DNA of 56,814 nt from a virus. The stretch is from positions 1 through 56,814 of the IMG/VR virus record IMGVR_UViG_3300029319_000057; one strand, 5' to 3'. Positions 251-43,300 of this stretch are shown in pieces (position 1 is the first letter of the stretch; each line of letters starts with the position of its first letter). The position numbers and the translations under genes are program-made. The notes under the pieces were generated by a model. That model did not search any database. It saw nothing but the letters and a program-made list of their open reading frames with translations, and was not told where the DNA came from.

Positions 251-284
251 TTATATTATCTGTATTGATTCGTATTTAGCTTGC
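251..284 (-). promoter_or_regulatory. Phage promoter motif, copy 1
   Basis: On the minus strand this reads GCAAG, then CTAAATACGA, nine variable bases, then GATAATATAA. It is one of seven copies in the minus-strand block, all with exactly nine bases between the two conserved halves. The stop codon of the upstream ERF gene lies inside the upstream half. The ATG of the exonuclease gene follows the GATAATATAA box at once, so the mRNA is probably leaderless or starts inside the codon. Confidence 0.7.
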
Positions 285-827
285 GACCTTTGCTTTTGTT
301 AATGTTGAAAGCTGGCCAGGTGTTAAATCATATTTAGCTTTTATAGCATCTAATTTGCCACCCGCTTTTAAATAATCAATTGCTTTAGTTACATCATGAA
401 GTGTTTGTTTTGTTTTCTGTTTAGTTGTAACTTTGCCGTGATTATTTGTAGCGTCGCTATCTTGCGTATCATCGATTAATAATAGGTTTCCTAACGCATA
501 CTTTTTAGCATAGCTCGACGCCGAACCAAATTGTTGCGGAGTCTGCATACCTTTCTGGTTCAGATCCACACCAACTATCGCAACTGCAGATAATTCCATA
601 CCTTTTTCATCAATCAACTTTGCGGTTGTTTTAATTATAGGCATAGGTTCATTAGCAATTAACTTTTCAGTAATTGTTACTGCAACACCTAACTCGTCGT
701 TAAACGGTTTAATAGCTTCGAGAATGTCTTCGGCACTGCGAAAGTAATATTTGCCGAAGGAATTAAATCTACTCTTCTTCGATTTAAATCTTGTTTGAAT
801 TTTTGCTAGTTTCTGGTATATGGTCAT
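276..827 (-). CDS. ERF-family single-strand annealing protein
   Basis: A 183-residue protein of the ERF superfamily, which anneals complementary single-stranded DNA during phage recombination. Residues about 27-57 carry the family pattern (FRSAEDILEAIKPFNDELG). Residues about 101-128 carry the strongly conserved SASSYAKKYALGNLLLIDD and the following DSDATN. A lysine-rich linker leads to a C-terminal helical tail ending at KAKVAS. The ATG at 827 is preceded by an AT-rich leader. Its stop codon is embedded in promoter copy 1, after which the exonuclease gene starts, so the pair forms a recombination module. Length is typical for the family. Confidence 0.85.
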   Translation of the reverse strand: MTIYQKLAKIQTRFKSKKSRFNSFGKYYFRSAEDILEAIKPFNDELGVAVTITEKLIANEPMPIIKTTAKLIDEKGMELSAVAIVGVDLNQKGMQTPQQFGSASSYAKKYALGNLLLIDDTQDSDATNNHGKVTTKQKTKQTLHDVTKAIDYLKAGGKLDAIKAKYDLTPGQLSTLTKAKVAS

Positions 828-881
828 AATAATATAATTACATATTTTAGTTAATACTTAAACGGTAATTTTTACCGTAAC

Positions 882-1646
882 TTAAAGGTAATCAAGCACT
901 TGTGTTGCGTCAACATTATTAATTAAGCATTGAATAGCGTCGCGTTTTATCTGAGATATACGCACATGAGCGGTATTCACGTTAATATCTAACTTGCTTG
1001 CAATTTCATTTGCAGAGTGCTTATCACAGTCAAGACCATAGCTTAATCGCAAGACCTCATACTGTTTAAAATCTAAATGCTTTTTCATTAGCTGTAACAG
1101 ATAAGCATTGAGTAAATGTATATTATATGGTTCTGATTTATCAATTACTTGATAAGCCATATTTTCATCCTGTGCAGGATTTTCATCAATGCTAGAAAAT
1201 ACGCTATTAAAAAACATCGCAACCATTTTTTCGTCTTTAGGATTGCGCCTTATTTCATTTAGCTTATGTTCAGGTATGCGTACGCCGCCTCTATTAATAT
1301 CTACGGACCTCCGTACTGCGCCCTTTATTCTTTTTGATAGAAATGATTTAATTGTTTTTTCTTGGTCATCAGACTTCTTTAATGTGTCTCTATCTATTTT
1401 AGTAACAGCAGACCATAATCCGATACTACCTTCTTGTAATAAATCATTTATACTTAATACACCAGATGCTTGGTCTGATGTTGATTGTTTTCTCGCCAGT
1501 GTTTCAACTAACGGTAAAAAATTTATAAAGAGTTCTTCATTTGTTAAATATGTATAATCACCTTCAATTGGTTTTCTTACACGCTTAACAGCCGCTTCAA
1601 CTTCTTTCTTATATCTAACGTAATTAGATATGTTATATTTTCTCAT
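882..1646 (-). CDS. Sigma-70-family RNA polymerase sigma factor
   Basis: A 254-residue protein with the two diagnostic sigma regions. Region 2 is at residues about 64-85, with NDLLQEGSIGLWSAVTKID, which matches the core-polymerase-binding helix of sigma-70 proteins. Region 4.2, near residues 212-242, is a helix-turn-helix with ANEIASKLDINVNTAHVRIS, as in -35-reading domains. Region 1.1 is absent and the region between is short, so it is a compact alternative-type factor. Its ATG overlaps the stop of the upstream HTH regulator by four bases (translational coupling). As the only transcription initiation factor seen in the window, it is a natural candidate to recognise the seven-copy promoter motif; that link is inference. 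Confidence 0.88.
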   Translation of the reverse strand: MRKYNISNYVRYKKEVEAAVKRVRKPIEGDYTYLTNEELFINFLPLVETLARKQSTSDQASGVLSINDLLQEGSIGLWSAVTKIDRDTLKKSDDQEKTIKSFLSKRIKGAVRRSVDINRGGVRIPEHKLNEIRRNPKDEKMVAMFFNSVFSSIDENPAQDENMAYQVIDKSEPYNIHLLNAYLLQLMKKHLDFKQYEVLRLSYGLDCDKHSANEIASKLDINVNTAHVRISQIKRDAIQCLINNVDATQVLDYL

Positions 1647-2263
1647 ATTTCTTTATTTAGTATTTCTTTTTCTCGCTTCAATTGATTACCCATATTTCTA
1701 TATATGGTTCGAGTAGTACACTTTAATAATTTAGCTAGCTTAGCTATAGTTATTTTCTGTTTACTATCGTTTAAATCTATCATGCATTGGTATATATCTT
1801 CTTCACATATTCTTTTACTTCTACCAATCAATCTTCCAACTATACTTAGCTTTTCGCTTAATGATAAACCAGTATAATCTTTAAATATTACTTTACGTAT
1901 ACGATTACGCGGAGGTTCGCCTCCTTCCATTAATACCTGACCGATCATATCTTCTAATAGTTTATTGTTAATAAAGAAAGTAACAAAACCATTTTCTTTT
2001 TTAGCTATAAATCTAGCTACAGTAACAAAATCGGAATTTATTATATTATCCATGTTAAGATAGTATAATACAAGCATATGCCATTTTAACGACTTATACG
2101 TAGTAATTTTTGCTTTACTTCTAAATAAACTATAACATTGATATGTACCTTCCGCGTAATAATCATATTGATCAGTACTTTCGGTAGGCTTATCTGTGAT
2201 AGGGTCACGTCTATAATTTATTCGCCTATCATTCAGCCACTTCATATTTCTTTCATGTGACAT
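1643..2263 (-). CDS. HTH regulator (putative)
   Basis: A 206-residue protein with no full-length family I recognise. The C-terminal 35 residues contain a good helix-turn-helix, KITIAKLAKLLKCTTRTIYRNM, with a spacing that suits a DNA-binding domain of the resolvase/transposon-regulator type. The body (residues 50-150) is basic and helical. It sits directly upstream of the sigma factor and overlaps it by four bases, so both are probably made from one mRNA and work in phage transcription. The first codons form part of a 12-base string, GCAAATGTCACA, that recurs exactly in the non-coding region near 7505, and loosely near 8790, which hints at autoregulation. Confidence 0.6.
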   Translation of the reverse strand: MSHERNMKWLNDRRINYRRDPITDKPTESTDQYDYYAEGTYQCYSLFRSKAKITTYKSLKWHMLVLYYLNMDNIINSDFVTVARFIAKKENGFVTFFINNKLLEDMIGQVLMEGGEPPRNRIRKVIFKDYTGLSLSEKLSIVGRLIGRSKRICEEDIYQCMIDLNDSKQKITIAKLAKLLKCTTRTIYRNMGNQLKREKEILNKEI

Positions 2264-2277
2264 TTGCTTATTACTAT

Positions 2278-2391
2278 TTATTTATTATTAGCTTTTGTCG
2301 CTCTGCGCTTTTTAAATTGTTTTATTGATGAACTAATATTTCTATAATTAGTTTCAATTAAATGTTTATATAATTTTCTTCTAATACTCAT
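2278..2391 (-). CDS. Small basic protein, 37 residues
   Basis: A short ORF (MSIRRKLYKHLIETNY...) ending in a Lys/Arg-rich tail. It starts inside the last codons of the 36-residue gene at 2381-2491 and ends 14 bases before the HTH regulator. The tight packing with overlapping start and stop is the same as in other gene pairs of this block, which is the main reason to believe it. No function can be read from it. Confidence 0.45.
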   Translation of the reverse strand: MSIRRKLYKHLIETNYRNISSSIKQFKKRRATKANNK

Positions 2392-2491
2392 TTTTTCTTT
2401 CGTGTCTTACATCACCGAAAATTATCAACTGCATATCGCTATCGTCATATTTTTCTTTCTCGGGATAATTAAAATATCTATTTAATATCAT
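2381..2491 (-). CDS. Small acidic protein, 36 residues
   Basis: MILNRYFNYPEKEKYDDSDM is the start of this short protein. The ATG at 2491 is preceded by AAGGAG two bases away, one of the few Shine-Dalgarno-like sequences in the region, and this decides the start. A longer reading frame exists upstream in the same phase but lies across the 3' part of the 2505-3074 gene and has no support. Function unknown. Confidence 0.45.
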   Translation of the reverse strand: MILNRYFNYPEKEKYDDSDMQLIIFGDVRHERKNEY

Positions 2492-2504
2492 AACTCCTTG
2501 GTCC

Positions 2505-3074
2505 TCAGGCAAAGTTAAGTTTATGTATATCGCTGTTATTAGAGACGAATTGATTGCTATCAATAGTACTATAATAAGTTTCGATAACCTCTCTAGGAAC
2601 TGTGTCGTGTGTATAGGGTTTTTCATTTTTGTTACAAATTTTTCGTTTGTCAATAATATAATATCGCCAGTAACCGTGTATAGCATTTGCCATTTTATAC
2701 TCGTCTGGCATACACTGTGGCGGGTCTGTCCACTCATAGCTAGTTATATTAGCAGGTGGTGTCGCTAAGAAATCTCTACATTTATTTATAGTGAGATGTT
2801 CTTTACCATATCGTTTAGTATATTCTTTACCCAGTGCAATCATATGGTCATATAACCACATATAGTTTGGTATAGAAGTTCTACACCATACAGTTGATGG
2901 GTGATTAAGGTGAGCCTGTTTATAAGGTACGTGTAGCTTTTGTTCTGAACTACCAAACACGTGGTGTGCAGTACAAAGCATTTGTGCGGACTCTAATATC
3001 ATTTTTACTTTATGCTTATCGTAAACATAAGACGCCGCTTTTGCGGGATCGTGGTGTAAGAAAAATATATTCAT
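2505..3074 (-). CDS. Conserved phage protein of the MNIF...KMILESAQMLCTAHH type
   Basis: A 189-residue protein. The N-terminal half begins MNIFFLHHDPAKAA and continues with DKHKVKMILESAQ and LCTAHH, then NHPSTVWCRTS and YMWLYDH. This pattern recurs in many tailed phages of marine bacteria, where it is usually left as a hypothetical protein or loosely labelled a pyrimidine-dimer glycosylase; I cannot confirm an enzyme activity. Conserved His, Cys and Trp residues suggest a catalytic or nucleotide-binding role. Its ATG overlaps the stop of the 3071-3331 gene by four bases, so the two are translated together. Confidence 0.6.
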   Translation of the reverse strand: MNIFFLHHDPAKAASYVYDKHKVKMILESAQMLCTAHHVFGSSEQKLHVPYKQAHLNHPSTVWCRTSIPNYMWLYDHMIALGKEYTKRYGKEHLTINKCRDFLATPPANITSYEWTDPPQCMPDEYKMANAIHGYWRYYIIDKRKICNKNEKPYTHDTVPREVIETYYSTIDSNQFVSNNSDIHKLNFA

Positions 3075-3331
3075 AATTTTTTCTTTAAATAGTTAATTCG
3101 TTGGTTAATTACTGCAGCTTTTTCATATTCTTCAGTTACTAAATACTCTTGTAATATTAACTTTAGATTTTTTATTTCTTCTTTAATATCGTCTTCAGGT
3201 GTTTTAAAACTATCCTGTATTTGTTGGTTAAGAATATCTGCTCCATATGTTGCAGTATCAGGGTCTAAAAATTCTTCGTATAAATCTCTTTTTATACGAT
3301 TATATAATGCTTGGTATTCTTCTTCGCTCAT
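3071..3331 (-). CDS. Small helical protein with a UVR-like C-terminus
   Basis: An 86-residue acidic, helical protein beginning MSEEEYQALYNRI. The reading frame is open five codons further upstream, but those codons are the GATAATATAA box of promoter copy 2, so the ATG at 3331 is preferred. The last 30 residues, LKLILQEYLVTEEYEKAAVI followed by NQRINYLKKKL, look like the UVR helix-hairpin found in UvrB/UvrC and other proteins, which mediates protein contacts. The likeness is short and may be chance. It is coupled to the 2505-3074 gene by a four-base overlap. Confidence 0.55.
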   Translation of the reverse strand: MSEEEYQALYNRIKRDLYEEFLDPDTATYGADILNQQIQDSFKTPEDDIKEEIKNLKLILQEYLVTEEYEKAAVINQRINYLKKKL

Positions 3332-3333
3332 AC

Positions 3334-3367
3334 TTATATTATCCATAGGTTTTCGTGTTTAGTCTGT
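3334..3367 (-). promoter_or_regulatory. Phage promoter motif, copy 2
   Basis: The minus strand reads CAGACTAAACACGA, nine bases, GATAATATAA. The TAA inside CTAAACACGA is the stop codon of the upstream gene (3359-3898). The downstream box ends three bases before the preferred ATG at 3331, so transcription would begin at or next to the start codon. Confidence 0.68.
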
Positions 3368-3898
3368 AGTTAGTATATCAACTATGTTCTGAGCATTTGC
3401 TCTAATTTTATTATACTTAGCTATTTCGTCTTTAGTAATTGTATCAATTCCAACATCTCCGAATCTAGTTTTGCCATTAGCGAAATCTGTATAATCCATA
3501 TCATCTTTATATGTTTTAATTATATGTTCAGGTGTTGCAACAAATACACATTGTTCTTTATATCTATCGTGACAAGCAACCATAGTTCTAGCTTTATCAC
3601 CAGCCCATATTACATATGTATATTGGTGGTCTACATTATTTATATCAGCATATAAGTAGCAACTGTCGTAATACATATCGTGTACTAGTTTTGCCGCTAA
3701 AGCTGAGCCGTCTTGTCGGTTATTTACATTTAACCAATTAGCTATTTGTACTGCTTGCCATTCAGGATAACCGTCATGGTGATGGTACATATTTACATAG
3801 CTATATTTAGCTACGTTTTCGGGGTGTGTTGCAAGTCCGTAGGAACTACCTCTTGCGTGTTTTCGGTCTACGACCATAATTAAATTTCTAGTTGCCAT
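3359..3898 (-). CDS. Conserved phage protein, HDGYPE type
   Basis: A 179-residue protein beginning MATRNLIMVVDRKHARGSSY and then, near residues 38-47, MYHHHDGYPE. This N-terminal pattern (MATR..., followed by a HxDGYP motif) is common in hypothetical proteins of marine and cyanophages. The middle part is rich in Tyr, Asp and Trp. No catalytic residues can be assigned. It overlaps the 3888-4154 gene by 11 bases, and its stop codon lies in promoter copy 2. Confidence 0.6.
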   Translation of the reverse strand: MATRNLIMVVDRKHARGSSYGLATHPENVAKYSYVNMYHHHDGYPEWQAVQIANWLNVNNRQDGSALAAKLVHDMYYDSCYLYADINNVDHQYTYVIWAGDKARTMVACHDRYKEQCVFVATPEHIIKTYKDDMDYTDFANGKTRFGDVGIDTITKDEIAKYNKIRANAQNIVDILTTD

Positions 3899-4154
3899 AT
3901 TCTATATCTTCGTTATTAGTTACCATCCACTCGCAATCACCCAATCTGTGACCAGCACCTAATAAAAATGCTTCACAAGATTCATGGTCTGGATTCCATT
4001 CGTTTTCTTCGTTACATAATGCTCTAACATTATATCTATATACTTTACCGTCATTAAAATCTAGTACAAATATATATTTAGCTCGTGCTATTCTGTGATG
4101 AGCCGGTCTTATATCCGTACCATGTTCTAATTCATATGCTTTTCTACTATTCAT
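3888..4154 (-). CDS. Hypothetical protein, 88 residues
   Basis: The product (MNSRKAYELEHGTDIRPAHHR...) has a predicted beta-rich centre with KYIFVLDFNDGKVYRYNV, and a Glu/Cys/His-containing second half. I do not recognise a family. It overlaps both neighbours by about 8-11 bases, which supports translation as part of an operon running from 4605 to 3359. Confidence 0.6.
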   Translation of the reverse strand: MNSRKAYELEHGTDIRPAHHRIARAKYIFVLDFNDGKVYRYNVRALCNEENEWNPDHESCEAFLLGAGHRLGDCEWMVTNNEDIEYGN

Positions 4155-4605
4155 CTTCTTCTAATTTATATTCACCAGAGTCTAATAATTCTTCTTTATA
4201 TTGCTCAAAAAATTCTTCATATACATCAGGCCACCAGCTTTCTAGTTCATGATTAAAATCGTATTCCATATCATCCCATAAGCATGGGTCTATCCATACA
4301 TTATTGCCGTGAGTTATTTCTTCAACAGCTTTTACCGACCAGTCATTATAATCTTCATAATAATAACCGTCTTGTGATATATAAGGTTTATCTTCGTGAG
4401 TACACCAAAATATATCATAACCATCAGAGGTCATTTCAGTATATATTTTTAATGTCCATTTGTCATCTATATAATCACTTGTATTATCTAGTTTACCACC
4501 GTATTCTGTTTCGATATACTCTAGTAACCAGTTGGCATCAGGCTCTTCCATAAAGCCATCCATTTCTAATTTTTCTTTGATTATTTCGTCCGTTAAAATT
4601 TCCAT
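4147..4605 (-). CDS. Hypothetical acidic protein, 152 residues
   Basis: A strongly acidic protein rich in Asp, Glu, Trp and Tyr (for example a run with IDPCLWDDMEYDFNHELESW). Such composition is seen in phage DNA mimics and in host-interaction proteins, but nothing more specific can be claimed. It is the first gene downstream of the tRNA-fMet, which ends 21 bases before its ATG, so it probably lies on the same primary transcript as the structured RNA and the tRNA. Confidence 0.6.
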   Translation of the reverse strand: MEILTDEIIKEKLEMDGFMEEPDANWLLEYIETEYGGKLDNTSDYIDDKWTLKIYTEMTSDGYDIFWCTHEDKPYISQDGYYYEDYNDWSVKAVEEITHGNNVWIDPCLWDDMEYDFNHELESWWPDVYEEFFEQYKEELLDSGEYKLEEDE

Positions 4606-4626
4606 AATTAATTGATTTTCAGTTAG

Positions 4627-4700
<74 letters not shown>

Positions 4701-5279
4701 ATATTTTAACAGTAAGCATTGCGACTCGGTAACGCTGCACCCGCATTGTCGGCTCAAAGGTTTTAACCATTCAACAACCGGCTTGGTACTTACTGTTATA
4801 TTGTAGGGTGGTATCGTGCACAATACCCACGCTTTCAGGAGTAACGGGATAATTAGCATTAAGCCTTCCCCTTTACTGTCCTTCGTGTTTTAACCCTAAG
4901 GCTTCGCCCACGGTTCGGTTGTATTCAGCGTCTCAGTCGTGCACTATCTTTCAAGCTGCAACTGTTCTTAGCTTACTGTTACCGGGCCTCGGTCCCGCCT
5001 CAGTCTCGGGTCGCTCATAATGCTAGTGGAGGATTACCCTCTATCTTGTACTTGCATTAGCGGTGCGCCTCTGACATTAATATTTTCGGGGGAAGAAACC
5101 CCAGCAGTTTCTTCTCATTACAGGTGATTCACATATCGGCACTTAGTCCCTAATGTGATTTGTCTTGGGAGTCACCAACCCTTAAACGAGCCATTCACTT
5201 ATGTGGTGTAACGGAATTTTACCGTACTTGGTTTGAACTACCGTGCTAAACTTGCACACCCTAATTAAGCTACTCGTCT
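4701..5279 (-). ncRNA. Large structured non-coding RNA (GOLLD/ROOL-like by context)
   Basis: About 579 bases without a plausible ORF between a zinc-ribbon gene and the tRNA. GC is 254 of 540 bases counted (47%), against roughly 30% around. Visible helices (plus-strand positions): 4707-4716 with 4789-4798 (10 bp); 4808-4814 with 4823-4830 (7 bp, one bulge, loop containing GTGCAC); 4892-4895/4900-4902 with 4906-4908/4912-4915; 5012-5014 and 5018-5023 with 5060-5062 and 5054-5059; 5123-5127 with 5172-5176; 5129-5134 with 5153-5158; 5205-5209 with 5256-5260; 5211-5214 with 5222-5225. Two pseudoknots: 5088-5091/5099-5102 whose loop pairs with 5108-5114, and 5147-5150 with 5167-5170. Size, complexity, phage setting and the adjacent tRNA match the GOLLD and ROOL classes; membership cannot be proven by eye. 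Confidence 0.75.
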
Positions 5280-5471
5280 CTATTTACGCCGCCATGCTCT
5301 GTGAACACTTGCAGAGACTTCTTGGCTGACGATTTGTATAGTGTTACCCGTCTTGCCGCTGATAATTGGAACGTAACTATATTGTCGTATAGCACTGCAG
5401 GAAACGCAGGTACTATAACCTAAGGCGATACGGCCAGCGGGTATTATATTTGAACATTTACATTTTTTCAT
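5280..5471 (-). CDS. Small zinc-ribbon protein, DksA/TraR-like
   Basis: A 63-residue protein with four cysteines in two pairs, CKC near residues 4-6 and CVSC near residues 22-25. They are separated by NIIPAGRIALGYST, the arrangement of the DksA/TraR C4 zinc finger in many phages. The C-terminal tail ends RAWRRK, also typical of that phage family. Family members act on RNA polymerase or nucleic acid; the exact role here is unknown. It follows promoter copy 3 by eight bases and is the only protein encoded upstream of the structured RNA on that transcript. Its stop codon directly abuts the RNA block. Confidence 0.7.
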   Translation of the reverse strand: MKKCKCSNIIPAGRIALGYSTCVSCSAIRQYSYVPIISGKTGNTIQIVSQEVSASVHRAWRRK

Positions 5472-5475
5472 ACAT

Positions 5476-5510
5476 ATATATTATCGAAAATATTTCGTAT
5501 TTAATTTGCA
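5476..5510 (-). promoter_or_regulatory. Phage promoter motif, copy 3 (drives zinc ribbon, structured RNA and tRNA)
   Basis: The minus strand reads TGCAAATTAAATACGA, nine bases, GATAATATAT. Eight bases separate the GATAAT hexamer from the zinc-ribbon ATG, so transcription should start at about the first codon. No other promoter or terminator is visible before the tRNA, so the zinc-ribbon gene, the structured RNA and tRNA-fMet are probably co-transcribed. Confidence 0.68.
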
Positions 5511-5741
5511 TTATTTTATAACATCAAAATCTATTTCTGTACTTGGGTTAGCTTCTAACCAGTTTAGCATATACTCAATTGTTCTCGTCATTACTGCTTT
5601 TTTCATTTGATTATAGTCATCACCTTCTAACTTATCAAGGTGTGTACCATCAATAGCCCAGTCAATCGAGTCGTCTAATTGTTCTAAACATACTTCGTGT
5701 AAATATTCTGCTACTCTGTCTATATCTTTCATTTTACTCAT
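5511..5741 (-). CDS. Hypothetical acidic protein, 76 residues
   Basis: A small acidic, helical protein (MSKMKDIDRVAEYLHEVCLE...) ending IDFDVIK. The ATG at 5741 overlaps the stop of the next upstream gene. An alternative start is the internal Met at codon 4. Its stop abuts the upstream end of promoter copy 3. No family recognised. Confidence 0.6.
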   Translation of the reverse strand: MSKMKDIDRVAEYLHEVCLEQLDDSIDWAIDGTHLDKLEGDDYNQMKKAVMTRTIEYMLNWLEANPSTEIDFDVIK

Positions 5742-5929
5742 TTTAATTTAATATTTTTTATAGAGTTAGATAAGTTAAGTTTACCTAATCTATTGTTATA
5801 CATATGCACTAAAAACTCATAAGCTATGTCAAAGTCTTCCCAGCTATCGTATTCATCTCGGTTTGCTTTGTAAAACTTTTCCCATTCTTCTTGAGCCCAT
5901 GCTCTATAATTTAATTCATTACTTGACAT
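5738..5929 (-). CDS. Hypothetical protein, 63 residues
   Basis: An aromatic and acidic small protein (MSSNELNYRAWAQEEWEKFY...) of the kind found in phage early operons. It overlaps the 5919-6116 gene by 11 bases and the 5511-5741 gene by four bases, which supports translation. Function unknown. Confidence 0.6.
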   Translation of the reverse strand: MSSNELNYRAWAQEEWEKFYKANRDEYDSWEDFDIAYEFLVHMYNNRLGKLNLSNSIKNIKLK

Positions 5930-6116
5930 AATCTTTTTCTATTGTTAAACCTAATTCTCTTGCAACATAGTTAATATGTTTCTGGGTTGTTACACTCCAC
6001 CATCCGTGTTGTATAAGTTTTCCTGGATATTCGATCGTTGCGACGTGTGTTGAGTAAGACCATATATCATTACCAACTCGTCTTAAATTTTCTTTATATC
6101 TATTAAATTTTCTCAT
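5919..6116 (-). CDS. Hypothetical protein, 65 residues
   Basis: A small basic protein with a beta-rich middle segment (DIWSYSTHVATIEYPGKLIQ) and the final motif NYVARELGLTIEKDYVK. The YVARELG segment could be one helix of a DNA-binding fold, but there is not enough to say so. It overlaps both neighbours by 4-11 bases. Confidence 0.6.
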   Translation of the reverse strand: MRKFNRYKENLRRVGNDIWSYSTHVATIEYPGKLIQHGWWSVTTQKHINYVARELGLTIEKDYVK

Positions 6117-6337
6117 ATTCTTATTGGTTTATGTGTTAATTCTTCGTGAGCTTTAGCAAGACCTTGTCTCCACTCCCATTCTTTTTTTCTGTATTCGTAG
6201 CTAGTACACCATTTGTACCATGCTTTTGTTAAGTTATTAGAGCCATACTTTGCTTCAAACTCTTCAACTTGCTTTAACTTCGCAGCTATTTTTACTGGGT
6301 CAAAGTCTTTAAATTCTGTCATTGTCAATTTTTCCAT
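6113..6337 (-). CDS. Hypothetical protein, 74 residues
   Basis: The frame is open back to 6370, but that would overlap the upstream gene by 62 bases. The internal Met codons at 6337 (MEKLTMTEF) or 6322 (MTEFKDF) give overlaps of 29 or 14 bases and are preferred. The product is basic and rich in Trp, Tyr and Lys (KWCTSYEYRKKEWEWRQG). Function unknown. Confidence 0.55.
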   Translation of the reverse strand: MEKLTMTEFKDFDPVKIAAKLKQVEEFEAKYGSNNLTKAWYKWCTSYEYRKKEWEWRQGLAKAHEELTHKPIRI

Positions 6338-6569
6338 TTGTAAATAATTTATCGCCATATTTAAAATCAATTCTATCCCATTTATATTCGTTTACATCGC
6401 CCCATATCATTAGGTCTTTGATGGTGCGCATAGTTAAGTCGTTGTAGGAAGTGAATCGGTGTAGTTCAGCAATTACTTCACGTGGTCCGTACTCGTATTT
6501 CTGAGCGTTTTCTTTTAGCTTTGCCTTGATTTCTGGCTTTAGCATTTGGTAAAGTGTTTTAATTTTCAT
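6309..6569 (-). CDS. Hypothetical protein, 86 residues
   Basis: A small protein (MKIKTLYQMLKPEIKAKLKE...) with a basic helical N-terminus and a C-terminal half containing WGDVNEYKWDRIDFKYGD. It starts 21 bases downstream of promoter copy 4, with an A-rich leader ending AAAATACT before the ATG and no Shine-Dalgarno sequence, as is usual in Bacteroidota. Function unknown. Confidence 0.6.
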   Translation of the reverse strand: MKIKTLYQMLKPEIKAKLKENAQKYEYGPREVIAELHRFTSYNDLTMRTIKDLMIWGDVNEYKWDRIDFKYGDKLFTNGKIDNDRI

Positions 6570-6590
6570 AGTATTTTATTTTAGTTACAT

Positions 6591-6624
6591 TAATATTATC
6601 TTTATGGTATCGTATTTAGATTGC
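6591..6624 (-). promoter_or_regulatory. Phage promoter motif, copy 4
   Basis: The minus strand reads GCAATCTAAATACGA, nine bases, GATAATATTA. The TAA in CTAAATACGA is the stop codon of the 52-residue gene at 6616-6774. The downstream gene starts at 6569, leaving a leader of roughly 15 bases. Confidence 0.68.
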
Positions 6625-6774
6625 ATAATACTTTTTACTAAATACTTTTTTCTGTGGTACTTTATACCTTCGATTACCCATACCTTTACATTCACCATAT
6701 ATTTTTACCATTTCAATATGGTGATGTTTACGTGCTTTCTTTTTATTCTCTACATACTGGCAGAGTTCTTTCAT
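6616..6774 (-). CDS. Small basic protein, 52 residues
   Basis: The product (MKELCQYVENKKKARKHHHI...) is rich in Lys, His and Tyr and has two Cys residues. It starts one base after the stop of the 47-residue gene upstream, and its stop lies inside promoter copy 4, the same stop-in-promoter arrangement as at 276 and 3359. That pattern is the main support for it being real. Function unknown. Confidence 0.5.
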   Translation of the reverse strand: MKELCQYVENKKKARKHHHIEMVKIYGECKGMGNRRYKVPQKKVFSKKYYAI

Positions 6775-6775
6775 A

Positions 6776-6919
6776 TTAGTTACTTTCATAAGCTTCGTCT
6801 ATTAAGTGGTTAATTTCTTTTAGTATTTCCTCTTTACTTAAGTCACTGTATTCTAGTCCACTTTTAGTGAACATTTCTATTTTCAGTAACGCTACTATTC
6901 TTTTATCTAATCTACTCAT
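6776..6919 (-). CDS. Small protein, 47 residues
   Basis: MSRLDKRIVALLKIEMFTKS begins this small amphipathic protein with a helical profile ending EINHLIDEAYESN. The ATG overlaps the stop of the 45-residue gene upstream by four bases (ATGA). Function unknown. Confidence 0.5.
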   Translation of the reverse strand: MSRLDKRIVALLKIEMFTKSGLEYSDLSKEEILKEINHLIDEAYESN

Positions 6920-7053
6920 AATATAGTTGTATTATTATATTCGTGTATTTCGTTTATTGCCTGTACAAATTCATCTTTGTCAATTGTACCGTCTTCAAGT
7001 TTACTTATTTGAAAACCTATCTCAGTCATTAATTCTATAAATTCTCTATTCAT
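6916..7053 (-). CDS. Small acidic protein, 45 residues
   Basis: MNREFIELMTEIGFQISKLE begins this acidic small protein, which continues DGTIDKDEFVQAINEI. That stretch resembles a single EF-hand-like loop (DGTIDKDEF), though too short to claim calcium binding. It is joined to both neighbours by four-base ATGA overlaps, which supports an operon 7334-6616 read from promoter copy 5. Confidence 0.5.
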   Translation of the reverse strand: MNREFIELMTEIGFQISKLEDGTIDKDEFVQAINEIHEYNNTTIL

Positions 7054-7334
7054 AATTCAAAATATTGTATGTATTCATCTCTAGTTACTTCGTCTTCGTC
7101 ATGTTTGTCTAAGTGATTTAAGTATAATTCTCTTAGTATATCTTCTAACATTTCTATACTTGTTGACTTTAATCTCTCATCAAACCAGTCTTGATTCACT
7201 ATTCCATTATGTAATACATAGTTACATAATATTGTTTCATTGTTTACGTCTTCTTCTGTTCCCCAGTAGTCTACGTTTTCTTTGTGTTTTACTATTTCTT
7301 TTTTAGTAAAGTTAATAATTTCTTTAGTGTTCAT
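7050..7334 (-). CDS. Hypothetical acidic protein, 94 residues
   Basis: An acidic helical protein (MNTKEIINFTKKEIVKHKEN...) with a C-terminal DEDEVTRDEYIQYFEL. It starts about 25 bases downstream of promoter copy 5, after the A-rich leader AAATTAAAA, and is the first gene of the 7334-6616 group. No family recognised. Confidence 0.6.
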   Translation of the reverse strand: MNTKEIINFTKKEIVKHKENVDYWGTEEDVNNETILCNYVLHNGIVNQDWFDERLKSTSIEMLEDILRELYLNHLDKHDEDEVTRDEYIQYFEL

Positions 7335-7358
7335 TTTTAATTTTTTATAGTTACATTT

Positions 7359-7392
7359 ATATTATCTAAAAAAGTTCGTATTTAGTTTGTAA
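7359..7392 (-). promoter_or_regulatory. Phage promoter motif, copy 5
   Basis: The minus strand reads ACAAACTAAATACGA, nine bases, GATAATATAA. Unlike the other copies it is not overlapped by an upstream gene but faces the non-coding region 7393-7695. It reads into the 7334-6616 gene group. Confidence 0.7.
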
Positions 7393-7695
7393 AAGTATAC
7401 TAATTGTTTAATAGTATAAAAAGTGTTGTAGGTATAATTCGTAACTCTCTTTTGTGTAAAGTGAAAATAGTGACGTTAGCTAGTAATATTAGTAATAATA
7501 GTAAGCAAATGTCACACTGTTTACCGGCATGACGATCTGTCACGTTAGTAACTTTATATGACAATGCGTCATACGGTGAGATTTCCGGCGCAATTTTTGC
7601 TATACGCAATGCTATACATTGCTATACACCGAAACCCTCCGGTGCCGAGTGATACTTTCCGTATATCTTGCCTTTGGGTTTGGTGATTAGAGAGT
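7393..7695. other. Non-coding regulatory region with dyads and short direct repeats
   Basis: About 300 bases without a convincing gene. It holds two dyads of identical form, TGAC-N5-GTCA, at 7530-7542 and 7559-7571 (the second extends to TATGAC/GTCATA at 7557-7573). It also holds three copies of TGCTATAC at 7598, 7610 and 7620, and the string GCAAATGTCACA at 7505-7516, which also forms the start of the HTH regulator gene. This is what an operator or small origin region looks like. A 69-codon frame on the minus strand at 7400-7609 is considered spurious. Confidence 0.5.
7598..7627 (+). repeat. Three direct copies of TGCTATAC
   Basis: Copies start at 7598, 7610 and 7620, so spacing is 12 and 10 bases, close to one helical turn. 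Such phased octamers are typical of protein-binding iterons or operators. They lie 29 bases beyond the second TGAC-N5-GTCA dyad, in the same non-coding region. Confidence 0.5.
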
Positions 7696-7998
7696 CTACT
7701 TTACTTCAACTCTTTCTATTACTATGTCTCTTACATTTGAAGGCATTCTAGTACTTTGTGACCAGTAACCTCTTTTCAACCAACAAGGCATTATGTTTAG
7801 TTTAGGTAACATTACTTTTAGTACTTCGTCGTGGTTGTAAGTTACTTTTTCATTTTTGTTATTAACAAAGGTAATGATTTGATTTCTACCGTACCATGAC
7901 TTTCTTACTACAAAGTTTTTTCTTGTGATTGGTGGAAAGATTTCTTTTAACTCTTTCTTACTTAGTTTACTGATTGCTTGATTTAATTTAGTGTTCAT
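7696..7998 (-). CDS. Hypothetical basic protein, 100 residues
   Basis: A basic protein (MNTKLNQAISKLSKKELKEI...) with the middle segment RKSWYGRNQIITFVNNKNEKV, and a C-terminal part with Trp and Arg (CWLKRGYWSQSTRMPSN). The base-rich, aromatic profile could suit nucleic-acid binding. It has an A/T-rich leader and no promoter motif directly upstream; it is the second gene after promoter copy 6. No family recognised. Confidence 0.55.
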   Translation of the reverse strand: MNTKLNQAISKLSKKELKEIFPPITRKNFVVRKSWYGRNQIITFVNNKNEKVTYNHDEVLKVMLPKLNIMPCWLKRGYWSQSTRMPSNVRDIVIERVEVK

Positions 7999-8019
7999 AA
8001 TTTTTAATTTTAATTGTTA

Positions 8020-8163
8020 TTATTTAATTTTATATTTATGTATTATTTTATTTATATCTTTTATATTTGTTAAGTGATAATGACTATGAAATTTTTTATT
8101 ATAATTAATTGTTAAGTCATATAGTTTGAATTCATTTGAATAGTAAATGTTAAATGAGTACAT
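8020..8163 (-). CDS. Small protein, 47 residues
   Basis: MYSFNIYYSNEFKLYDLTIN starts this Tyr/Asn/His-rich small protein, which ends IIHKYKIK. It lies 24 bases downstream of promoter copy 6, with an A-rich leader, and fills the gap before the 7696-7998 gene. Function unknown. Confidence 0.45.
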   Translation of the reverse strand: MYSFNIYYSNEFKLYDLTINYNKKFHSHYHLTNIKDINKIIHKYKIK

Positions 8164-8186
8164 AATTATTTTTTTATTTGTTACAC

Positions 8187-8220
8187 TTATATTATCTAAT
8201 TTACTTCGTATTTAGTTTGC
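8187..8220 (-). promoter_or_regulatory. Phage promoter motif, copy 6
   Basis: The minus strand reads GCAAACTAAATACGA, nine bases, GATAATATAA, which is the exact consensus of the set. It abuts the stop codon of the upstream 8220-8435 gene and reads into the 47-residue gene at 8020-8163 and the 7696-7998 gene. Confidence 0.72.
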
Positions 8221-8435
8221 TAAAAAGGTAATATAGTTTTTTCAATATAAGTTAGACCTTTTAGTTTTAGCCAGTGTGATTTACCAGTTTTATATTGGTG
8301 ATTTCCATCTTCATCTTGTCCTAAGTATTTTGTTTTAAAGCCAAATGAGTTAGGAAGATTGCCGACTGTGTAGCCTTGATAGTAAGTGTTATTAACTTTA
8401 ATAACATTGTCTTTTAAGAATTTAATTGTTAACAT
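8220..8435 (-). CDS. Hypothetical protein, 71 residues
   Basis: A small beta-rich protein (MLTIKFLKDNVIKVNNTYYQ...) with YLGQDEDGNHQYKTGKSHWL in its second half. This reads like a small OB- or SH3-like barrel, but the likeness is not specific. It is the first gene of the leftward block, about 24 bases downstream of promoter copy 7. Confidence 0.55.
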   Translation of the reverse strand: MLTIKFLKDNVIKVNNTYYQGYTVGNLPNSFGFKTKYLGQDEDGNHQYKTGKSHWLKLKGLTYIEKTILPF

Positions 8436-8458
8436 AGTATAAGTTTTAATAGTTACAC

Positions 8459-8492
8459 TTATATTATCGAAAGACCTTCGTGTTTAGTCTGC
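8459..8492 (-). promoter_or_regulatory. Phage promoter motif, copy 7
   Basis: The minus strand reads GCAGACTAAACACGA, nine bases, GATAATATAA. It is the outermost copy, at the edge of the divergent region, and reads leftward into 8435-8220. Confidence 0.7.
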
Positions 8493-8835
8493 CAAAAGCA
8501 CGGGTAATATGCTGAGGCAGAAAAAAGCTAAAATATATTTTAAAAATTATAATATACTATACGCTCCGCGTACTGCAATGCAGCTAAAAACCTAGAAACC
8601 TCGACTGTAAAACGTAAAACAGCAGGGGGCTGGCCAAATAAAAACGGCTTTTCCGTAATGCGCAGCGTCGATACGGCAAGGCGTAACCCGTTTCTTCTTT
8701 ATATCTTATAATATGCGCACCTTATAATAAATAATGTTATTATTTATTTATATATGACATAAGATATAATTATATAATAGTAAGCAGCAAGTGTCACATT
8801 ATTAAAATTTACTATTTTTGAGTAATAATATAGAT
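8493..8835. other. Divergent non-coding region between leftward and rightward blocks
   Basis: About 340 bases separate the leftward early block from the rightward late block. The left part (8560-8690) is GC-richer, with short dyads such as CTGCA-A-TGCAG near 8575 and ACGG-CTTTT-CCGT near 8643. The right part is extremely AT-rich and contains the nested dyad 8699-8769. The rightward late promoter must be here, but it does not match the seven-copy leftward motif. A replication origin is a reasonable guess without direct proof. Confidence 0.5.
8699..8769. repeat. AT-rich nested inverted repeat
   Basis: The outer arms are 11 bases each and perfect, 8699-8709 (TTATATCTTAT) with 8759-8769. Nested inside is a 10-base perfect stem, 8726-8735 (AATAAATAAT) with 8739-8748, around a three-base loop GTT. 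The unit lies in the divergent region just before the first rightward gene and could form a cruciform, an unwinding element or an operator. Confidence 0.6.
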
Positions 8836-9427: not shown

Positions 9428-10993
9428 ATGGAATATAATAATCCAAGTGAGATAGTAAAGAATCTGTCTTTCGGGGCAGATGCAAGAGACAAAATAATGC
9501 ACGGGGTTGATAAACTAGCAAATGCGGTTAAATCAACCCTAGGTGCTTCCGGAAAATGCGTTATATACGAAGACGCGTTAGGCCGGCCGGTAATTACAAA
9601 AGACGGTGTAACCGTTGCGGAAAGCGTAGTCTTATATGACCCGGTCGAAAACATAGGGGCAACTCTTATAAAGGAAGCAGCTAGAAATACAGTAAAAGAA
9701 GCCGGAGACGGTACAACAACAGCAACAGTGCTTGCGCAGGCATTGTTGCACCTCGCATATGCAAAAATTAAGGATGAGGGTGTGCGTAATATTAAATTAG
9801 GTATATCCTCTGCCCTTGATAAAGTAACTGAGCACTTACAGGAGGAAGCAATTCCCGTCAAGGATGACATGTTAAGATCCGTAAGTGCTATTAGTTGCAA
9901 TAATGATGAGGCTCTGGGAAATATCATATCGCAAGCCTATTCGAAGGTAGGTAAGGATGGTGTCGTCCTTATGGAAGAGTCTGAGACCCATGACACATAC
10001 GTTAAATTCGTAGAGGGCACACGAATAGAAGGCGGACTCAAATCGCCACATTTTATGACAGATAGAGATAAAGGTAGAGCAGTACTAGACAATCCGTACG
10101 TACTAATAGTTACTTCGCCAATACCTAATATCCGTAAAATACAAAGTGTATTGGAGTTTGTTATTAAAAAGAAAAGGAGCTTATTAATCGTTGCAGGCGT
10201 AGAACAACAACCTATGGCAGCTTTATTAGCTAACAAGGTTAAAGGCAATATAAAAGTTAATGTTGTAGATCTGCCTGGATTCGGACCAACTAAGCAAGAT
10301 ACAGTAGAAGATCTTGCGATATTGACTGGAGCAAAAATAATAGACGAAGAACTTGGTGATGATTTAGATTTAATAAATCCAGATGTACTCGGTGAGGCTA
10401 AGCAAGCTATAACCGATAATACACATACAGTTCTTCAAACTATAGATCAAGGTGAAATTTCTAAAGAACGAGTTAAAAAAGTTGAAAAGAAAATAAAAAA
10501 AGAAAAAGACCCGTACTTTAAGAAGAAGCAACAAGAACGTTTAGCTATGCTAAATGGGCAAGTTGCGATGATAAAAGTCGGCGCCGATTCTAAAATTGAG
10601 CTAAAAGAAAAGAAAGATAGAGTTGAAGACGCTATTTATGCAACTAGAGCAGCATTACAAGAAGGAATAGTATCTGGAGGTGGAATTGCATTATTAGATG
10701 CTCATTATAATATACAGCCTGAAAATGAAGGCGAGCGTATTTTATTAGAAGCTATAAAAGCTCCATATAAAACTATTTTAGAAAATGCTAATTTAGAATA
10801 TAAAGAAACAGGTAAACAAGGGACAGGCGTTAATGTTATATCTGGCAAACAAGTTAATATGATTAAATCCGGTATTATTGATCCTGTGCTTGTAACTAAG
10901 ACAGCGTTAAAAAATGCAGTTAGCGTTGTCAATACTATATTTTCTGCAGATTGTGTAATTTCAAATATTAGAATAGACAATGCAAGCAGTTAA
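9428..10993 (+). CDS. groEL: Phage chaperonin GroEL
   Basis: A 521-residue group I chaperonin. Diagnostic motifs are present: TKDGVTVAESV and GDGTTTATVLAQALL in the N-terminal equatorial ATPase domain, the apical-domain stretch with KIQSVLEFVIKKKRSLLIVA, and DRVEDAIYATRAALQEGIVS followed by GGG in the C-terminal equatorial domain. It lacks the Gly-Gly-Met tail and is some 25 residues shorter than bacterial GroEL. It should fold phage capsid or other proteins in the host cytoplasm, with the GroES that overlaps its 3' end. Base composition changes inside the gene: four lines at 9481-9720 are 45% GC, three lines at 10741-10920 are 29% GC, which suggests a mosaic origin. Confidence 0.95.
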   Translation: MEYNNPSEIVKNLSFGADARDKIMHGVDKLANAVKSTLGASGKCVIYEDALGRPVITKDGVTVAESVVLYDPVENIGATLIKEAARNTVKEAGDGTTTATVLAQALLHLAYAKIKDEGVRNIKLGISSALDKVTEHLQEEAIPVKDDMLRSVSAISCNNDEALGNIISQAYSKVGKDGVVLMEESETHDTYVKFVEGTRIEGGLKSPHFMTDRDKGRAVLDNPYVLIVTSPIPNIRKIQSVLEFVIKKKRSLLIVAGVEQQPMAALLANKVKGNIKVNVVDLPGFGPTKQDTVEDLAILTGAKIIDEELGDDLDLINPDVLGEAKQAITDNTHTVLQTIDQGEISKERVKKVEKKIKKEKDPYFKKKQQERLAMLNGQVAMIKVGADSKIELKEKKDRVEDAIYATRAALQEGIVSGGGIALLDAHYNIQPENEGERILLEAIKAPYKTILENANLEYKETGKQGTGVNVISGKQVNMIKSGIIDPVLVTKTALKNAVSVVNTIFSADCVISNIRIDNASS

Positions 10994-40364: not shown

Positions 40365-43300
40365 ATGGAAAAAATATATAAATCATTATACAGTAAATAT
40401 GCTCCTAATTTAACTGATGAGGAGATAAATTCTGGTGTGGCTTATTTATTAACTCAAAGTCCCAGCCAAGCTGTTGATTCTTTTTATGAAAAATATGTAG
40501 GAAATTTGCCAACTGTTGAACAAAAGGGCTATATTTTTTCAAGAATGGCTGATTCAATACCTGAACCAAATCAACCTCAAGAAAAACTTGACGCGGGATA
40601 TTGGAAAAGATTTACAAATTCAATGAAAAGAATATTTTCTAGTGTTGTTGACGATGTTCCAAGAGATAATGCCGCTAGACAAATACAAAGAGCAAATGCT
40701 AATTTAGATAGAATTTATAATAATCCTGATTTAACAGAATTTAAAGTAGGTAGTAGTTTTATGCCAATTGCATCACCTACAACTAATATTTCTTCATCTG
40801 TACCTTCATATAAATCTTTACCAAGGGATGAGGCAATACAGTATTATAAAGACATAATAGCAAAAAATGAGCAGATTTATATGGAAAATTATATTGAATC
40901 TGCTGAAGTACAAAACTATTTAAATCAATATAAAAAAATACATATATTTGAAGATGATGGAGATAGTGAATTATGGGATGATTTTCATTTAACTTTTGAT
41001 AAAGCAGCAGGTGTGGCTGTTGAGCAATTACCACAAATGCTTGGTGCTTTTATTAGTTTTGGATATACAACATATGCGCAGGAAGGAGGGTCTGTTGCTT
41101 CTGAATTAATAGATAAACTTGCCGCGCAAAATTTAAATGTAAGCTATGAAGAGTTTTTAACGCTAGATGAAACTACAAGAGCAAAAGAAGTTCTTAATGT
41201 AATACAAGATGGCGATGCTGTAGAAGCTTTACAAGAAGCTCACAGGGTAGGATTGCAAAATGCTGCTTTTGATTATGCTAGCAATCTTTTTTTAGTTGGT
41301 AAAGCTACAAAATTTGTGCCTAAGAGCGCGTTTAGAGGCTTTTTAAGAGGCAAGATTAATAAAGACGCAGGAAATTATTTAAAAGGCTTAGGTTATTCAC
41401 AATTAGCAGAAGTAGTTACTGAAAATGCACAAGAAATAAACTCCGCATTAGCTACTGATAATCCTATAACAGCTAATCTTATTGCAGAAACTACTGCGCA
41501 AACTATATTAGGCGCTGGTACAACTCAGGTAGCTATTGGTACAACGAAATTTACTATTTCAGAAGGTATTGCTGAATTAACAGCTTTAAATGATCCTACA
41601 AGTTTAAGAGCAATAGCTAATGAATTAAAAAGACAAATTAAAAATAGCAATAGAACAAACGACGAAAAAAATTCTATGCTTAGAGAAATAGATATTGCAG
41701 AAAATATTGTAAATAATTCAAAAAACAAATATTTGTCTTATGAAGCTAAAAAAGCTATGTTTCAACTTGAAATTGAAAAAGTTAATGCTCAAGAAAAGCT
41801 TACAGGTTTAGAAAACGAATTTAAAACAAATAAAAGTATTTCAATTGAAGCGCAAATTCAAAATGAAAAAAATAGAATTGAAAGCTATAATAATCAGCTA
41901 GCAAAAACTATATATTTTGAATATTTTAATACATCTGGTAAAAATTTATTATCTTATATAAATGCAGATAAAACTGGATTTTTTGCTAATAAAAAAGGCA
42001 TAATGAGAGCTACCAGGGCTGAATTAAAAACTTGGCTAGAAAATAATAGACCGGATTTGCTAAATGATCCCGAGGTTATAAATATGCTAGAGGGCACTGT
42101 TAATGAAGCTGGTATGCGTGTATATAATCCTGGTATTATGAAAGGCGATTTAGCTTTGTTTGTTGAAGAAAATGTTGAAAATAACATATTTAAAAATAAA
42201 GGTGTATTTAGTACTTCCGCAAATGTAGTTCATCATGAGGTTATGCACTTTATATTTGATTCTTTAAGTAATAAAGATAAAGCACAAGTTGTAAAAGAAT
42301 TAAATACAGCATTTGCCAATTCAAAAGACACTAAAATGATAAACGCTTATAATCAATTACTAAAAAGATTAAGCGTATATGGTAAATTTGATTTAAATAA
42401 CATGACAATAGTTAATGAGTATTTGTCAGGGTTATCAGATGTTTTAAGTCAACAAACAGCATTAGAAAATATACAGCAAGGCGATATGTTTAATCAAATG
42501 GGAGACGCTTTTGCTAAAGCATTTTCAAAAACATTAAAAGATATACCTTTTGAAATTGACGGCGAAAACGCATTAGAATTAATTTTAAGATATAATAGTT
42601 TTGCTGGAATTAAGCCCGCTTCAGTTCGACCAACAATAGAGGCTGTTGCTGATGTTGTACAAACAGCGGTTACAACAGGTAAAACAGATATTGACGAAGA
42701 AACTAAACCTTCTATTGAAGTTGAATTATCATCTGAAGAAATACAAAACAGTCAAAATGCTTTAGACAAATATATAACTGAAGATATAAAAACGCAAGAT
42801 GATTTTAAAAATAATGATACAGCAAGAGCTGGTATATATACAGAAATAGAAGTAAATCTTGTTATAGACCCAGTTATTAATAGTATAATACAAAGAGACG
42901 AAAATACCAGTGGTCTAGCACCTGAAATACAGGAAGATATTAAAAGAAAAGTAAGAGAAAGAATTACAGAAAGAGTATTTAAAAACTTTAACCCAGTATT
43001 AGACGGAAATAAAAGAAGTGTATTTAGTTATATTTATGGTAAAAAAGAAACTAAAGGTACTGGCGGTATTGCATTTAGAGCTTTTCAAGATGTTAAATTA
43101 GAATATGTAAAAAAACCACAAGGGCAGTCTATTGAAACTGACGCTGGTGTTACAATTGATATTGTAGATGAAACTGCAACAGACATAGAAAGCGCTATTG
43201 ATAGCAAAATATTAAGCGAAAACATAGAAAATACTTCTAATCCTAAAATAGAAGATGAAATTGATATACTTACAGAAGATGATATAAAAGATTTAGAAGA

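Follow-up and report, generated by a model that had tools for sequence, protein, structure and literature searches.

A rigidly spaced motif, probably an early-class promoter, in a clade of marine podoviruses and the divergent phage sigma factor that may read it

The virus record IMGVR_UViG_3300029319_000057, analysed here over its full length of 56,814 bases (the window), carries on its minus strand seven copies of a bipartite motif, in which a block close to cTAAATACGA is separated by nine variable bases from GATAAT or a near variant. The motif is probably a promoter of the early class, presumably also early in timing, that is shared by a clade of phages. The best overall explanation, to which we assign a probability of roughly 0.6, is that it is read by host core RNA polymerase carrying a sigma factor encoded by the phage itself (882–1646, minus strand).

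Results

Scanning of the window with up to three mismatches detected seven sites on the minus strand as compared to 0.15 +/- 0.39 expected from dinucleotide shuffles, none of which (0/100) yielded seven; the same scan found no site on the plus strand, and the full 56,814-base record holds these seven sites and no others, all of one orientation. An earlier note on this DNA had described seven minus-strand copies, most of them flanked by a GCAAA-like outer block. The copies exist, six of them at the coordinates given there and the one placed at 7359 lying in fact at 7357–7385, 2 bp away, and an outer block of the form [AG]CA[AG]N accompanies all seven.

The phages that carry the motif form a clade of uncultured marine podoviruses whose relatives include phages of Flavobacterium, Cellulophaga and Maribacter. 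This clade is common among marine viral contigs, and the motif is matched exactly in at least 118 stretches of IMG/VR contigs. Absence from relatives, which the earlier note had named as grounds for abandoning the idea, is the opposite of what is found, the motif being abundant on related phage contigs. For comparison, we assembled the window and 20 long relatives (62–79 kb) into a set of 21 genomes. These share a common plan, with an early module on one strand that includes genes for a helix-turn-helix (HTH) protein, the sigma factor and Erf, and with groEL and the genes for terminase, portal and virion proteins in a late module that diverges from it. When every 5-mer dyad in the upstream regions of the early strand was counted, with no input from the motif, TACGA-N9-GATAA ranked at the top, with 74 sites versus 0.47 expected and occurrences in 21 of 21 genomes. 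A position weight matrix (PWM) with a score of at least 25 retrieved 174 sites, 173 of them on the early strand. The fixed length of the filler, as claimed in the earlier note, was borne out by a half-site scan of the same genomes, in which the spacer of nine nucleotides (nt) was found 163 times and any other change between -8 and +12 just once, at +11. The cores of 46 of the 174 sites overlap a called gene, which may partly reflect over-long starts, since genes were called simply as the longest open reading frame (ORF).

A logo built from 411 distinct sites in the loci collected (up to two mismatches, the sites being picked with the motif itself) begins with (T)TACAAA cTAAATACGA and continues with nine variable bases turning A/T-rich, GATAATATAA n T R, and an A-rich leader. 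In the relatives, (T)TACAAA adjoins cTAAATACGA on its upstream side, the filler is variable and A/T-rich near GATAAT, and GATAAT itself is essentially invariant despite the permitted mismatches.

The positions of start codons relative to the motif point to where its RNA may begin. Taking the first T of TAAATACGA as position 0 and position 30 as offset 0, we scored ATG codons for opening an ORF of at least 45 amino acids (aa) at 501 sites, 172 from the 21 genomes and 329 from separate contigs. An ATG at offset 0 opens such an ORF in 36 of 38 cases in the genomes and in 44 of 52 on the separate contigs (80 of 90 in total), whereas an ATG at offset -2 does so in 1 of 49 and 4 of 92 cases, respectively (5 of 141), which is at the chance level of 3.6% per ATG. 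In the sequence itself, ATGs at offset -2 outnumber those at offset 0 (49 and 92 versus 38 and 52). Few starts fall at offsets 1–8 in the 21 genomes and most of the remaining ones at 9 to 40; on the separate contigs, offsets 2–4 are also in use (26 frames), and very short leaders thus occur too. As codons before offset 0 are unused and those at offset 0 are used, the simplest reading is that the RNA starts at position 30, a purine located 7 nt after GATAAT and within the range of 5–9 bases that the earlier note had anticipated. For roughly one site in six, the message seems to be leaderless, beginning with its start codon. On this numbering GATAAT occupies -12 to -7, its first A falling at -11 and its last T at -7. 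Sigma-dependent promoters canonically have their -10 element there, and this placement was reached without assuming a sigma factor. The genes of the clade show no Shine-Dalgarno signal (4.5% versus 5.5% in shuffled sequence), as in Bacteroidota phages. According to surveys of such hosts, leaderless messages or very short leaders are rare: 3.7% of leaders are under 10 nt in Bacteroides thetaiotaomicron (PMC7366714), 5.5% of messages are leaderless in Flavobacterium psychrophilum (PMC9723704), and leaders over 10 nt make up 87% in F. johnsoniae (PMC6847099).

The abundance of the motif in relatives and the position of the predicted start support the earlier proposal of a promoter-like element served by one recognition system. 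Its proposed distinctness from the Bacteroidota promoter is likewise confirmed, the motif having neither TTTG at -33 nor TAnnTTTG at -7.

The seven putative promoters of the window, all on the minus strand, differ in their leaders. Copy 2 (3334–3362) has its predicted +1 at 3331, the A of ATGAGC, and would yield a leaderless message for an 86-aa ORF (3071–3331). Copy 3 (5476–5504; +1 at 5473) would leave a leader of 2 nt before the ATG at 5471 of a 63-aa C4 zinc-finger-like protein. Longer leaders are predicted for copy 4 (6591–6619; +1 at 6588; ATG at 6569, 19 nt; 86-aa ORF), copy 5 (7357–7385; +1 at 7354; ATG at 7334, 20 nt; 94-aa ORF), copy 6 (8187–8215; +1 at 8184; ATG ~21 nt downstream; short ORF) and copy 7 (8459–8487; +1 at 8456; ATG at 8435, 21 nt; 71-aa ORF). 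Copy 1 (251–279; +1 at 248) is followed by an exonuclease VIII-like ORF whose ATG (250–248) sits at offset -2; this gene is therefore an exception, which copy 1 could not serve with a leaderless message. The small early protein encoded just after copy 3 (5280–5471, minus strand) is conserved, with the pattern C.C...IPxGR..LGY.TCV.CS followed by HKTGN in most relatives; by eye it resembles the DksA/TraR finger pattern, and it has no Pfam match.

The candidate reader of the motif is the product of the ORF at 882–1646 (minus strand; 254 aa), which, judging by its PHROG assignment, profile matches and predicted fold, is a sigma-70-type factor of a previously unnamed family. It matches PHROG 351 (sigma family) at 2.7e-14 and FliA and SigA/RpoD chains in profile comparisons (best 7e-11), whereas Pfam sigma-70 regions 2 and 4 were matched below the curated cut-off, which marks it as divergent. 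The predicted model (mean predicted local distance difference test score, pLDDT, 75.8) has sigma-70/SigA structures as top Foldseek matches (E ~1e-5), and all matches listed are sigma-factor or RNA polymerase structures; the global template modelling score (TM-score) is low (~0.3), and in the model it is thus the domains alone that match sigma factors, not their arrangement. Among 26 aligned family members G109 and R112-R113 are invariant, and in the alignment with SigA they lie opposite Q437 and T440-R441, respectively. In sigma-70, Q437 and T440-R441 are the residues that specify base -12, and an arginine at the T440 position would be consistent with the G that never varies at -12. A tblastn search with the sigma factor of the window against 50,697 phage records found no relative at 1e-3, and a second family member gave remote matches at most (best 4e-3). 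We consider the factor the likely reader of the motif and predict that it binds core polymerase.

The start of the sigma gene is overlapped by the gene of an HTH protein (1643–2263, minus strand; 206 aa), a possible co-activator. It is present in 21 of 21 clade genomes and absent from three outgroup genomes, and a structure search with the protein gave no significant match.

Among 80 records, the sigma gene is found in 49 and the motif in 66, and every motif-bearing contig shown to reach the sigma locus has the gene. Fourteen motif-positive, sigma-negative contigs, those examined for this, end 5–972 nt beyond their last site, and in 14 long genomes the sigma gene starts 1,136–3,446 nt beyond the nearest upstream site; this contig-end check was made without G047, which has three pattern matches and no sigma gene. 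A few short fragments carry only one or two weak motif matches each. Outside the clade, no sigma gene was found in six relatives (MW202828, elemoF, Panino, phi38:1, phi46:3 and Gundel), five of which have no motif match, while phi38:1 has one at up to two mismatches. A PWM scan of three of these six relatives yielded no motif site; these same three carry TTG-N17-21-TAnnTTTG 4–93 nt before genes in 11 cases, as compared to seven such entries in the 21 genomes of the sigma-positive clade, several of them inside genes or duplicates. Hence, the disappearance of host-type promoters coincides with the acquisition of the motif and of the sigma and HTH genes, apparently on a single branch.

The late strand carries a weaker class of candidate promoters, class B, composed of TAAA[TA]A, 12 bases and TGTAATNATA. 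In the window, the ATG (8836) that opens the first late gene lies 15 nt beyond the first base of the class B -10 region, AGTAATAATA (8821–8830, plus strand), and exactly the same distance is found in four relatives (G013, G028, G044 and G065), which again suggests a leaderless RNA. We regard class B as weaker than the early class because the seeded model partly rests on one orthologous site after a muzzle-like gene and because TGTRATNATA alone is mildly strand-biased (85 versus 68). Motif finding by expectation maximization on late-strand DNA was captured by start-codon context and was discarded. Three records (G004, G013 and G032) contain two sigma paralogues each, which could serve the two promoter classes.

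Several further features of the window were recorded. Between the early and late modules (8750–8800) lies a weak version of an inverted repeat of the relatives, GTGACATTAGCCTATTA...TAATAGGCTATTGTCAC, possibly a regulator site, a terminator or an origin. Near the head of the late module, a phage GroEL gene (9428–10993, plus strand) is conserved within the clade and in outside relatives. A stretch of ~500 bases of high GC content (4751–5256) adjoins a tRNA-Met gene (0.45 for 4701–5475 versus a window average of 0.32); it has no gathering-level Rfam match, its conservation in relatives was not found, and it is possibly a structured RNA or a foreign insert. The very large virion protein encoded at 40365–47396 (plus strand) has a variable N-terminal part and, in relatives, HExxH and FDFDDTLA motifs as well as a P-loop-like insert in two genomes; it looks like an injected polyvalent protein.

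Discussion

In the mechanism that we favour, host core RNA polymerase together with the phage sigma factor would recognise a promoter in which nine A/T-rich bases separate TTACAAAcTAAATACGA (about -38 to -22) from GATAAT (-12 to -7), followed by ATAA n T and a purine at +1. Region 2 of the sigma factor would read GATAAT, the arginine in place of T440 of sigma-70 suiting the G at -12, and the upstream block would be read by the C-terminal HTH of the sigma factor, either alone or jointly with the HTH protein encoded next to it. Transcripts would span the small early gene clusters and then the downstream HTH-sigma-recombination operon, and transcription of the latter may provide positive feedback.

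A number of observations weigh against this mechanism. The association of sigma gene and motif follows one clade, and shared descent could explain it, the coincident changes having occurred on what looks like one branch. Motif divergence follows that of the sigma factor no more closely than background would predict (partial rank correlation 0.18, p 0.13), and HTH, Erf and terminase track it about as well. If the phage sigma factor alone reads the motif, its first molecules need another source, and a scan for TTG/TAnnTTTG found no host-type promoter near the sigma operon. Phage cascades usually leave early promoters to the host sigma factor and bring in a phage sigma factor later; class B could then be the alternative target of the latter. 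Moreover, the upstream block extends to -22, beyond the expected reach of sigma region 4 alone.

Some of these points would be accommodated if the motif were read by the host's own sigma factor in an unusual host and the phage factor switched polymerase to class B, in a cascade like those of SPO1 and T4. The bootstrapping problem would be absent, and class B (TAAA[TA]A-N12-TGTAATNATA) is present in the same genomes; moreover, phage early regions typically have many near-identical promoters before small early genes. We nevertheless judge this scenario unlikely, albeit the chief competitor and deserving serious attention: the relatives infect Flavobacteriia, and three of them carry TTG/TAnnTTTG promoters; the lack of Shine-Dalgarno signals is of the Bacteroidota-phage kind; and four of ten genome-bin matches are Bacteroidota, these being metagenome bins only, taxonomically mixed and unreliable for the host. 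The published sigma-A code of Bacteroidota is TTTG/TAnnTTTG (PMC6847099, PMC7366714). A different division of labour, in which the TAAATACGA block in the spacer is the binding site of the HTH protein, which brings the host sigma holoenzyme to GATAAT by appropriation, much as T4 MotA acts together with AsiA at middle promoters, would account for a conserved block at -31 to -22 rather than just at -35 and for the rigid spacing, and the HTH gene overlaps the sigma gene in the window and occurs in all 21 genomes. However, GATAATAT differs from the -7 TAnnTTTG required by Bacteroidota sigma-A, structure searches gave no clear match for the HTH protein, and the bootstrapping problem is shared with the phage-sigma mechanism, making appropriation improbable.

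More distant from a sigma-based mechanism is a promoter for a single-subunit or virion RNA polymerase, with RNA starting from GATAAT. The T7 promoter is TAATACGA, to which ATACGA bears a superficial likeness. This idea is very improbable, since no RNA polymerase family or motif was seen in the large proteins inspected, PF00940 had no match in 50 records in a search run without a positive control, and the positions of start codons put +1 12 nt downstream of the G of GATAAT, contradicting an RNA start there; a T7-like promoter was rejected on these grounds. A virion RNA polymerase within the 2,343-aa protein was likewise set aside, as it has no profile or motif support and shows zincin-like HExxH and HAD-like FDFDDT motifs instead. 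Least probable of all is a DNA signal for replication, packaging or RNA processing: many copies lie within one region, as such a signal might, but they have a single orientation, stand just before start codons and set a limit for start codons that is exact to the base.

Known phage sigma factors that have middle or late promoters of their own include those of SPO1 (gp28/gp34) and T4 (gp55) (PMC9429907). As proposed here for the marine clade, these factors redirect host core polymerase to phage promoters with a diverged -10 element. The promoters described here differ in that they cluster in the early module, also upstream of the sigma gene itself, and in their rigid spacer, a block reaching to -22, apparent leaderless messages and probably Bacteroidota hosts. 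T4 middle promoters combine a MotA box near -30 with a -10 element, and MotA acts with AsiA. The present motif resembles them in that a conserved element lies between -35 and -10 and that the early module encodes a further DNA-binding protein, whereas phages of the clade encode their own sigma factor; a homologue of MotA or AsiA was not noticed in the clade, no profile search having been aimed at either. Early promoters of AR9 and phiKZ (AAATATATATTAT-6N-G; PMC5312081) are also A/T-rich, highly conserved and at a fixed distance from +1, but they are read by a virion RNA polymerase, which was not detected here. The Bacteroidota sigma-A promoter is the type found in out-of-clade relatives, and the clade motif shares neither of its elements. 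The literature searched contained no published set of promoters for this group of phages.

A more far-reaching version, which we hold to be rather doubtful, is that the clade has wholly left the host promoter code: recognition of a rigid block in two parts (-38 to -22 and -12 to -3) would fall to its own sigma factor and the linked HTH protein, and recognition of the late class to the same machinery or to a second paralogue of the sigma factor; early messages would often be leaderless, and sigma factor delivered with the virion would start the infection.

While phage sigma factors as such are already known, the family described here has no close relative in 50,697 catalogued phage records. If its pairing with the motif is true, the two would form an orthogonal sigma-promoter pair for use in Bacteroidota, a group with promoters unlike those of model bacteria, and the clade would be a clear example of phages abandoning the host promoter code while their relatives retained it. 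Two questions become testable thereby, namely where the first phage sigma molecules come from and how Bacteroidota ribosomes handle leaderless messages.
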